A DNA stretch of 64,000 nt from Streptomyces sp. Q6 (lineage in GTDB: Bacteria; Actinomycetota; Actinomycetes; Streptomycetales; Streptomycetaceae), in contig NZ_CP146022.1 of assembly GCF_036967205.1 (NCBI RefSeq), positions 2,914,001-2,978,000 on the forward strand, read 5' to 3'. The notes beneath the pieces are model-generated. The model did not search any database. It was not told the DNA's origin and saw only the letters and a program-made list of their open reading frames with translations. This document shows positions 61,032-63,300 of the stretch, piece by piece; positions within the stretch are counted from its first letter, which is position 1; each line of letters opens with the position of its first letter. Made by a program: the position numbers and the translations under genes.

Positions 61032-62510
61032 CTACTGCAAGGAGTATCCGGCGAACTCCTCGGGCACGTCGGTGGAGATAACTCCCCTCTTCCCCGGCTC
61101 GCTCGCCCACGCCGCGTATCCGTCGGGGCGTACGAGCAGCGCCGTCCGCCGGTCGCTCGCCCAGTGCTCGACGCGGACCGGGCCGCCCTTGTGCTCGGCC
61201 TCCTCGGGCAGGATCAGCACGAACTCGCCGTCGCGCAAGGCCTCGTAGAGCCGGGTGCCGCCGCGCAGGGCGACATCGGGGACGCGCCTGCCGACGAGCG
61301 CGTGGGCGCCCTTGGCGGCCGGATAGCGGAAGCCGATGCCGGTGATCTGCCCGAGGGCGCGGTCCCGGGCGGGGTGGACCCGGTCGACGAGGCCGGTGAG
61401 GACGGCGCGGGCGGCGAGCGTCCAGGGGCGCCTGGCCATCGCCATCCGCACGATGCCGCCGCTGCTGCGCAGGACCGCCCGGCCGACGGGGTGCCGCTCG
61501 GCCTGGTACGTGTCCAACAGGGCCTTGTCCGCACGGCCGTTGAGGACCGCCGCCAGCTTCCAGCCGAGGTTCGCGGCGTCCTGGAGGCCGGTGTTCATGC
61601 CCTGGCCGCCGGCCGGGGTGTGCACGTGCGCGGCGTCCCCGGCGAGCAGGACGCGGCCCACGCGGTAGGCGGGCGCCTGGCGTTCGTCGCTGTGGAAGCG
61701 GGACATCCAGCGGGCGTCGTGCATGCCGAAGTCGCGGCCGAGGGCGAGCCGGGCGATCTCCTTGATCTCGTCGAGGTCGAGCGGGGTGGAGTCCGGCACG
61801 TCGTGGGCGCGGTTCCAGCCGATGACGCGGTAGTAGCCGTCGCCGAACGGCGCGATGAAGGCGAAGGCGTCGCCGACGGCGTTCACGGTGAGCAGGTTCT
61901 CGGGCCGCTCGGCGAGCCGCACGTCGGCGAGGACGACGGAGCGGATCACGGACCTGCCGGGGAAGGGCAGCCCCACGGCCTCCCGCACCGCGCTGCGCAT
62001 GCCGTCGGTCCCGACGACGTACGCGGCGCTCATCTCCTTCGACTCCCCGTCCGCCGTGCGGACTTGAAGGGTGACGCCGTCCGTGCCCTGCGTCAGGCCC
62101 GTCACCTCGGTCTCGTACGCGAAGGAGACCCCGGCCTCGACGGCACGCCGCGCCAGCGCCTTCTCGACCTCGTACTGCGGGACGACGAGGAGGTGGTTGA
62201 ACCGGGAGGGCAGGTCGCCGAGGTCGACGGTGAGGCGCCCGAACAGCCGCAGCCGGTCGAGGACCTGGCCCCTCTCCTCGATCTCGTCGGCCAGACCCCG
62301 CGCGTCGAGCTGCTCCAGGGTGCGGGCGTGGACGACGAAGGCGCGGGAGAGGTTGCTGATCGTGCGGGCGCGCTTCTCGACGAGGGTGACGGGCACACCG
62401 GCGGCGGCGAGGTCCCCGGCGAGCAGCAGGCCGGTGGGCCCGGAGCCGACGACGAGGACGGAGCCGACGCCCGTGCGGTCGTTCGTGGTGCCGTTCGTGG
62501 TGCCGTTCAT
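61032..62510 (-). CDS. FAD-dependent aromatic monooxygenase (Rox/UbiH-like)
   Basis: 492 residues, AGGAGG upstream of the ATG. Flavoprotein hydroxylase fold: VLVVGSGPTGLLLAGDLAAAGVPVTLVEK (FAD binding), VVGTDGMRSAVREAVGLPF (DG motif), GRVLLAGDAAHVHTPAGGQGMN (GD motif, near residue 285), C-terminal thioredoxin-like tail. It uses NAD(P)H and O2 to hydroxylate an aromatic or polyketide; related enzymes inactivate rifamycins (Rox). Divergent from a TetR gene, with an operator array between them. Confidence 0.88.
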   Translation of the reverse strand: MNGTTNGTTNDRTGVGSVLVVGSGPTGLLLAGDLAAAGVPVTLVEKRARTISNLSRAFVVHARTLEQLDARGLADEIEERGQVLDRLRLFGRLTVDLGDLPSRFNHLLVVPQYEVEKALARRAVEAGVSFAYETEVTGLTQGTDGVTLQVRTADGESKEMSAAYVVGTDGMRSAVREAVGLPFPGRSVIRSVVLADVRLAERPENLLTVNAVGDAFAFIAPFGDGYYRVIGWNRAHDVPDSTPLDLDEIKEIARLALGRDFGMHDARWMSRFHSDERQAPAYRVGRVLLAGDAAHVHTPAGGQGMNTGLQDAANLGWKLAAVLNGRADKALLDTYQAERHPVGRAVLRSSGGIVRMAMARRPWTLAARAVLTGLVDRVHPARDRALGQITGIGFRYPAAKGAHALVGRRVPDVALRGGTRLYEALRDGEFVLILPEEAEHKGGPVRVEHWASDRRTALLVRPDGYAAWASEPGKRGVISTDVPEEFAGYSLQ

Positions 62511-62564
62511 GGTGGCCTCCTACGACTGCGCTGCGAAAGCGACTGCGACTGCGACTGCGGTGCG

Positions 62565-62661
62565 CCAACACCTGTTGGTCAACACCTGTTGGTCAACGCT
62601 TGTTGGCAAACGTAGAGCCGCACGTCTGGACTGTCAACACGTGTTGGCCTACGTTTGTTGG
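62565..62661. promoter_or_regulatory. Five-copy 14-bp operator array
   Basis: Consensus TCAACACCTGTTGG (near-palindromic, CAACA...TGTTG). Copies at 62565, 62579, 62593 (back to back) and 62634, 62648 (back to back), the last ending one base before the TetR start codon. The palindrome at 62565 (CCAACA-CC-TGTTGG) is perfect. A 27-bp gap separates the two groups. Very likely binding sites of the divergent TetR protein. Confidence 0.8.
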
Positions 62662-62662
62662 C

Positions 62663-63244
62663 ATGAGTGAGAAGCAGCAGGCGACGCAGGTGGCCCGGCG
62701 GTCCGACGCCACCCGCGCCGCGATCCTCGGCGCGGCCCGTGAACGGTTCGCCGCGGACGGGTACGAGCGGGCGACGATCCGCGCCATCGCGCGTGACGCC
62801 CGGATCGACCCGTCCATGGTGATGCGCTATTTCGGGAACAAGGAAGGTCTCTTCGCGTCGGCCGTCACCCTCGACCTGAAGCTGCCGGACCCGGCGGGCA
62901 TCGCGCGTGAGGAGATCGGCCGCACGCTGGTGGGCCACTTCCTGGCGCTGTGGGAGGAGAACGAGGTGCTCACCGCGCTGCTGCGGGTCGGCACCACGAA
63001 CCAGGCCGCCGCCGAGCGGATGCAGGGTGTGCTGCGCGACCAGCTGATCCCGGTGGCCAGGAAGGTCTGCCCCGACCCCGAGCAGGCCCCGGCGCGGGCG
63101 GCGCTGGGCGCGTCACAGGTGCTCGGGCTCGCGCTGACGCGGTACGTGCTGCGCTTCCCGGCGAGCGTGGCGATGAGCCGCGAGGAGATCGTGGACTGGC
63201 TTGGCCCGACGGTGCAGCGCTATCTGACGGCCGAGACGCCCTGA
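62663..63244 (+). CDS. TetR-family transcriptional repressor
   Basis: 193 residues from ATG 62663. HTH region RAAILGAARERFAADGYERATIRAIARDARIDPSMVMRYFGNKEGLF; C-terminal all-helical ligand domain with one Cys. No Shine-Dalgarno sequence fits before the ATG because the operator array abuts it; the transcript may be leaderless or nearly so. Divergent from the monooxygenase gene, which is its probable target. Confidence 0.9.
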   Translation: MSEKQQATQVARRSDATRAAILGAARERFAADGYERATIRAIARDARIDPSMVMRYFGNKEGLFASAVTLDLKLPDPAGIAREEIGRTLVGHFLALWEENEVLTALLRVGTTNQAAAERMQGVLRDQLIPVARKVCPDPEQAPARAALGASQVLGLALTRYVLRFPASVAMSREEIVDWLGPTVQRYLTAETP

Positions 63245-63300
63245 GCGGGACGGGAAGCGGACGCGGACCGGGACGGGCAGGACCCGCAGGGGTGAACGCG

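Follow-up and report, generated by a model that had tools for sequence, protein, structure and literature searches.

The window analysed here, a stretch of 64,000 nucleotides of Streptomyces sp. Q6 DNA, contains a gene for an FAD-dependent monooxygenase of 492 amino acids (61032..62510, minus strand) and, divergent from it, a gene for a TetR-family regulator of 193 amino acids (62663..63244, plus strand). The gap between them holds five 14-bp palindromes with the consensus YCAACRnnYGTTGR. The regulator is proposed as the protein that binds these palindromes and as an autorepressor, with the monooxygenase gene as its divergent target.

The divergent genes and the repeat array

The monooxygenase matches PF01494 (4e-88) and Rng_hyd_C, and its best PDB relatives are the rifampin monooxygenase 5vqb and polyketide oxygenases. 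Judged by these similarities, it is a Rox/PgaE-like flavin hydroxylase. Assignment as a rifampin monooxygenase (Rox) proper was rejected, since the NCBIfam model rif_monoox scored 341 bits against a cut-off of 800, which makes the enzyme a relative only. Its ribosome-binding site, AGGAGG, is read as CCTCCT on the plus strand at 62516-62521. Tandem Repeats Finder also reported a short CGACTG-type tandem repeat at 62523-62559, in the oxygenase leader between the array and the start codon.

The regulator matches PF00440 with 46.3 bits (cut-off 24) and PF17920 (TetR_C_16); the TetR_N helix-turn-helix, by which membership of the TetR family is judged, was found. Its AlphaFold2 model is all-helical, with a mean pLDDT of 93.1 and a helix at residues 50-57, and an alignment of 32 homologues shows no variation at residues 48-56.

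The array occupies 62565-62661, with three abutting units at 62565-62606, then 27 bp, then two abutting units at 62634-62661. The left block consists of the predicted operator units 1 (62565-62578, CCAACACCTGTTGG, with a unit score of 10 of 10), 2 (62579-62592, TCAACACCTGTTGG) and 3 (62593-62606, TCAACGCTTGTTGG), the latter two called from sequence and unit scoring. Unit 3 is followed by a lone left half-site, CAAACG (62607-62612), recognised by sequence and column conservation, which extends the lattice into the oxygenase −10. The right block consists of predicted units 4 (62634-62647, TCAACACGTGTTGG; sequence and unit scoring), which holds the perfect 12-bp palindrome CAACACGTGTTG, and 5 (62648-62661, CCTACGTTTGTTGG; sequence, scoring and conservation). 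Unit 5 has TA where AA is expected, and we read this TA as part of the tetR −10. The starts of the two blocks lie 41 bp apart, which is three 14-bp steps minus one base.

Reading of the sequence confirmed the original prediction of five 14-bp copies, three of them back to back and two more after 27 bp, and this grouping is indeed unlike the ordinary two-site TetR layout. The predicted span, 62510-62663, proved to be that of the entire intergenic region rather than of the array proper. The last copy had been said to abut the TetR start; this is nearly so, a single base (C) separating unit 5 from the ATG at 62663.

Across the genome (8,951,745 bases, two contigs) the sequence CAACNNNTGTTGG is matched five times, always inside the array, and the left block was reported with period 14 by Tandem Repeats Finder. 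The longest 14-spaced chain is three units here, and for all 20 Markov sequences of the window it is one. A loose motif search allowing two mismatches gave 24 matches across the whole window against 24.0 expected, and loose matches are therefore not enriched; what is exceptional is the exact step together with the quality of the units.

Association of the array with the TetR regulator

The association of the array with the regulator was assessed on loci found by TetR similarity alone. A locus was scored as positive if it held a chain of at least two units, each scoring at least 8 of 10 and exactly 14 bp apart, between 250 bp upstream and 80 bp downstream of the estimated tetR start. From 242 loci with a TetR match, 146 were used; 79 brought in by another search, 15 that were redundant, one that was too short and one partial locus were set aside. 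At a TetR identity of 60% or more, a chain was present in 116 of 120 loci, the window counted (the misses were L038, L057, L071 and L078), and at 47–60% in seven of seven. At 42–47% it was present in two of four (L249 and L250 being the misses), and below 42% in one of 15. Control stretches 920–1250 bp upstream gave a chain in none of 184 cases, in a set that includes pattern-found loci. Array-bearing genera include Streptomyces, Kitasatospora, Catenulispora, Actinomadura, Sphaerisporangium and Jiangella. Relatives that retain the gene pair had been named at the outset as the place where the repeats might prove to be missing; nearly all of them carry the repeats.

A strict two-unit pattern, GTTGGYCAACNNNNGTTGG, was also searched for in 295 genomes of the genus. 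It was found in 118 of the 165 genomes with the TetR, being absent from the other 47, versus four of the 130 without it; a reversed pattern, used as a control, matched once, in G164. Among the four TetR-less genomes, G024 and G237 have coding matches, and the others are G062 and G220. In G220 (L272) the array is followed by an ATG (GGCATG) and is then cut by a contig end; this candidate for an oxygenase locus without tetR was dropped, since the contig ends soon after GGCATG.

Changes of neighbouring genes provide natural dissections of the locus. In 12 of 103 loci (L025, L029, L037, L046, L052, L057, L059, L060, L067, L080, L082 and L083) the divergent partner is an ABM monooxygenase, recognised by similarity to the gene of L083. 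Pfam confirmed ABM in L025, L080 and L083, with an additional glyoxalase match in L025 and L083 and a DUF4267 match in L025. These loci retain arrays beside the TetR, and in three related ones (L057, L059 and L067) some of the units are 13 bp long, having lost a central base, with a step of 13 there. On a tree of 102 TetR rows, the fewest changes that account for the partner gene is one, rows with neither partner excluded.

Neither partner was detected in seven loci. Of these, L070, L071 and L085 have tetR-side units only, L078 has an eroded tetR-side unit, L075 keeps both blocks, L038 is degenerate and L053 lies at a contig edge. The reverse loss is seen in six oxygenase loci without tetR (L116, L121, L151, L152, L156 and L157), which have units on both sides; L116 contains a TetR remnant, and L121 has two units on one side and one on the other, the right. 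All six of these genomes carry the TetR elsewhere. L152 (G059:C8) is the window's own locus with tetR deleted: the 630 bases corresponding to 62664-63293 are replaced by 64, the sequence beyond resumes at 87% identity, and the array is 84% identical. This comparative evidence across loci supports the predicted role of the repeats as operators of the adjacent TetR.

Putative promoter elements and variation in unit number

The promoter elements described here were placed by conservation. The putative oxygenase −10 is TACGTT (62609-62614, minus strand), and its −35 is TTGACA (62632-62637, minus strand), with a 17-bp spacer between them. The promoter alignment comprised 92 of the 103 loci, 11 without a pair of GTCAA/GTCAG type being left out. 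In this alignment TAnnnT stands at the oxygenase −10 place in 84 of 92 loci, and the spacer is 17 bp in 63, 18 in 24, 16 in three and 19 in two. GTCAA is found at the −35 place in 89 of 94 loci when block pairs were chosen without regard to GTCAA; a count of TTGAC from pairs chosen by GTCAA/GTCAG was discarded as evidence for the −35, because the selection had used those letters. The 27/28-bp gap between the blocks thus looks like the spacer of an oxygenase promoter of the form TTGACn-17/18-TAnnnT. A transcription start derived from this −10 would fall at ∼62602, within unit 3.

For tetR, the candidate −35 is TGGACT (62627-62632, plus strand), which overlaps the oxygenase −35 by one base and lies 17 bp before a putative −10, TACGTT (62650-62655, plus strand), within unit 5 and 7-8 bases before the ATG. 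This short distance indicates that the tetR transcript is probably leaderless, starting at the ATG. In 92 of 92 loci TAnnnT occupies the third to eighth base of the right unit nearest tetR; 11 of these last units had been recognised by a CCTA/CATA start and are not independent for TAnnnT, and where the unit was not chosen by its first letters the count is 81 of 81. Elsewhere TAnnnT is rare (three of 273 left units and two of 141 other right units), and it is found in the last right unit of none of the six tetR-less oxygenase loci.

The tetR −35 appears to differ with the size of the right block. Where the right block has two units, GGAC is present near the −35 place in 26 of 35 loci, versus seven of 57 where it has three or more; in the latter group the −35 place is TTGTTG-like and lies within the first right unit, the central bases of which are TT in 54 of 57 loci versus five of 35 with two units. 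The Fisher p-values for this swap ignore kinship, which inflates the contrasts. A kinship-aware contrast for TT gave four independent supported pairs, with a mean of 2.7 for and 0.0 against, which is not significant by the sign test.

A generic sigma-70 consensus scan found neither promoter, because the −10 elements are only TAnnnT, and the promoter calls rest on conservation. Comparison across loci, in which promoter elements prove to be built into the array, supports the earlier suggestion that both promoters could be covered by bound protein.

The step between units is nearly constant. Among 463 neighbour distances of 2–26 bp, 460 are 14, two are 13 and one is 22, although the 14-bp scoring template undercounts units and steps of 13 bp; besides these there is one unit overlap of 1. 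The number of units varies. Block statistics could be drawn from 94 of the 103 loci, the other nine having no such block pair. Left, oxygenase-side blocks have 1–7 units and right, tetR-side blocks have two or three in 87 of the 94, while the distance between block starts is 41 bp in 63 loci, 42 in 26, 40 in three and 43 in two. When changes were counted on the TetR tree over 92 rows, the fewest changes required were 35 for left unit number (five or more pooled), 23 for gap length and eight for right unit number (two or fewer versus three or more). Variation is seen even among near relatives of the window, since L087 has three left units as the window does, L007 and L011 have two and L006 has four. 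These different unit numbers at 14-base steps suggest a switch that bacteria can tune through gain or loss of entire sites. A variable number of short tandem palindromes, as in the array, is also found in the met boxes bound by MetJ, which differs in being a ribbon-helix-helix protein with an 8-bp step.

Possible modes of binding and known systems

We consider it probable that the array is an operator array of the TetR, with dimers, one per unit, coating and repressing both promoters. This is by far the best reading because the unit is palindromic, the link to the TetR persists despite change or loss of the partner gene, and the promoters are overlaid on the units. In this arrangement, the autorepressor would bind YCAACRnnYGTTGR units whose two blocks lie around, and extend into, a pair of back-to-back promoters. 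The left block would lie just downstream of the oxygenase −10, across the start and leader, and the right block would cover the oxygenase −35 plus the tetR spacer, −10 and start; in the alignment, the main unit-free stretch corresponds to the 17/18-bp oxygenase promoter spacer. Bound dimers would shut RNA polymerase out of both promoters. The dimers would be freed by a ligand, which might be an aromatic or quinone-like substrate of the oxygenase or, in one clade, of the ABM/glyoxalase enzymes. Gain or loss of whole units, mostly in the left block, may tune how strong and how steep repression is.

With 10.5 bp to a turn, a 14-bp step corresponds to 1.33 turns, and three units (42 bp) to four. 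Neighbouring dimers would thus sit 120 degrees apart and return to the same face every three units, so that a continuous winding coat is possible. A rough geometry, which assumes reading heads 37 Å apart in the dimer and radii of 18 and 48 Å, places the nearest reading heads of neighbouring dimers ∼33 Å apart at a 14-bp step, and their ligand domains ∼96 Å apart. By this model neighbouring dimers would pack without large contacts, and steps of 10–12 bp would probably produce clashes. The nearly invariant step led us to give about even chances to the idea that the dimers feel each other, directly or via the DNA, and cooperative or chain-like binding is plausible. More than one dimer per operator is described for QacR, CprB and CgmR, with cooperativity in QacR and CprB and no dimer-dimer interactions in CprB (PMC4150764), which makes a DNA-mediated effect plausible here.

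A reading with somewhat less than an even chance is that the same operators are filled by independent dimers, extra copies simply raising occupancy or sensitivity and the 14-bp step being a by-product of duplication of whole units. The little contact left by the geometry at 14 bp fits this reading, as does the change of left-block number by whole units, with at least 35 changes on the tree. However, if the step were only a by-product of duplication, the rarity of steps other than 14 is harder to accommodate, as the promoter gap, unlike the step, does show indels (40–43 bp, at least 23 changes). A more ambitious picture, which we hold tentatively and think rather doubtful, is that the TetR clade forms a modular nucleoprotein coat in which dimers are added singly on a 14-bp lattice, the number of units, altered by duplication or loss of whole units, serves as an evolvable dial that sets how strong and how steep induction is, and the lattice has spread in some species to further genes as targets or titration sites.

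It is improbable that dimers also occupy the everted palindromes at the junctions (GTTGGYCAAC), one every 7 bp, as QacR/CprB pairs. The junctions of abutting units are indeed palindromic, the rough geometry leaves room for dimers offset by 7 bp, and paired dimers at 130–145 degrees are known (PMC4150764). But the centres of the half-sites lie 8 bp apart inside a unit and 6 bp apart across a junction, which would be hard for one dimer to span, and single units without a well-matching neighbour exist (L071 and the right side of L121).

Arrays are also found away from the locus. Close inspection of 20 genomes, 15 of them chosen for prior pattern matches, turned up chains of up to 15 units that share this consensus and step but sit in unrelated intergenic regions of G014, G169 and G212. 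These arrays away from tetR and the oxygenase (L149, G014:C267; L150, G169:C12; L146, G212:C8; L160, G014:C190; L269, G014:C46; L270, G014:C90) have 4–15 units. Their neighbours are TP-methylase and ZIP transporter genes on either side, a gene for an Asp/Glu racemase, a PHO4 phosphate transporter gene that the array precedes, and penicillin amidase genes that the array follows, the position after what is apparently the same penicillin amidase gene being common to two species (L146 and L270). An imperfect array of seven units, with some steps of 15–16 bp, is flanked in L271 (G196:C7) by a flavin-oxygenase-like frame and a glycosyltransferase-like frame. The off-locus arrays may serve as additional targets or as titration sites, or represent a repeat that is drifting. 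They mean that the array is not always beside tetR or the oxygenase, which counts against the best reading. So do the 13-bp units of L057, L059 and L067, the retention of both blocks in L075, the two of four TetR homologues at 42–47% identity that have no array, and the 47 TetR-bearing genomes without the strict pattern. Off-locus arrays would also be expected if the units were sites of another regulator, or a dispersed repeat merely located here. We nevertheless regard that explanation as very improbable, since the presence of the array tracks this TetR, it is kept beside a different partner operon, promoter elements are built into its units, and a search of the window's own genome found no further copy. 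That the repeats act as RNA structures is scarcely credible: the left block would be in the oxygenase transcript, but folding of the leader is no better than that of shuffles (z +0.42), two-base loops preclude a full hairpin within a unit, and the right block is outside that transcript.

For an operator array of the TetR, the closest known systems are SCO7222 and EthR, and multi-site TetR operators as such are already known from them. SCO7222 of S. coelicolor is a TetR-family repressor gene divergent from a monooxygenase gene, SCO7223, across a 146-bp intergenic region; the protein gave three EMSA shifts with three palindromic operators and acted negatively on its neighbour in a lux reporter (PMC3511530). 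The 15-bp operators, TGGAACGNCGTTCCA, form three discrete protected regions, of which two lie towards the regulator gene and one towards the enzyme gene (PMC3511530). The likeness lies in the divergent TetR-family and monooxygenase genes with several palindromes in the gap; the difference is that the available text describes no abutting lattice (PMC3511530), and the TGGAACGNCGTTCCA type of operator was not encountered here, where the consensus is YCAACRnnYGTTGR.

EthR dimers bind cooperatively as an octamer in the intergenic region shared with ethA, repressing both genes (PMC5403819, PMC4418694). A TetR-family repressor, a divergent monooxygenase gene and the layout are alike, but EthA is an enzyme of the Baeyer-Villiger type and no lattice of 14-bp palindromes is described in the accessible sections (PMC5403819, PMC4418694). 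As to a relationship of the proteins, none of the 33 PDB sequences matching our TetR (phmmer, E up to 0.01) is named EthR. Tn10 TetR likewise represses both genes from divergent promoters through palindromic tetO operators of ∼15 bp, but its two operators are 11 bp apart rather than abutting (PMC3511530, PMC9736018). QacR, CprB and CgmR differ in having one operator of 22–32 bp for two dimers rather than a chain of palindromes (PMC4150764). BldC, a Streptomyces regulator, forms cooperative multimers on variable numbers of direct repeats, but it is MerR-like and assembles as an asymmetric head-to-tail oligomer, not as symmetric dimers on palindromes (PMC5859096).

In the literature examined, TetR-family operators consist of one palindrome, a few spaced ones or a longer site for a pair of dimers. 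An abutting, copy-variable 14-bp lattice marking a TetR clade was not found among the matches listed in searches of open-licence literature. Since nature provides blocks of anywhere from 1 to 7 units at this one promoter, as well as losses of either gene, the effect of operator number and phase on repression and induction becomes directly testable. The consensus YCAACRnnYGTTGR at 14-bp steps also provides a searchable operator code for a widespread actinobacterial TetR clade whose genes adjoin those of FAD- or ABM-type monooxygenases. Matches to GTTGGCCAACACCTGTTGG in L147 (G212), L153 (G237), L154 (G255), L155 (G024), L158 (G146) and L159 (G267) were rejected as operators, being coding matches. 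All six are read in one frame, HRLQQVLANL(L/S)ANAR(L/V)HTPVGT, which we take to be a histidine-kinase motif. The stretch resembling two units within this conserved coding motif, LQQVLANLLANAR, is a false friend for operator searches.
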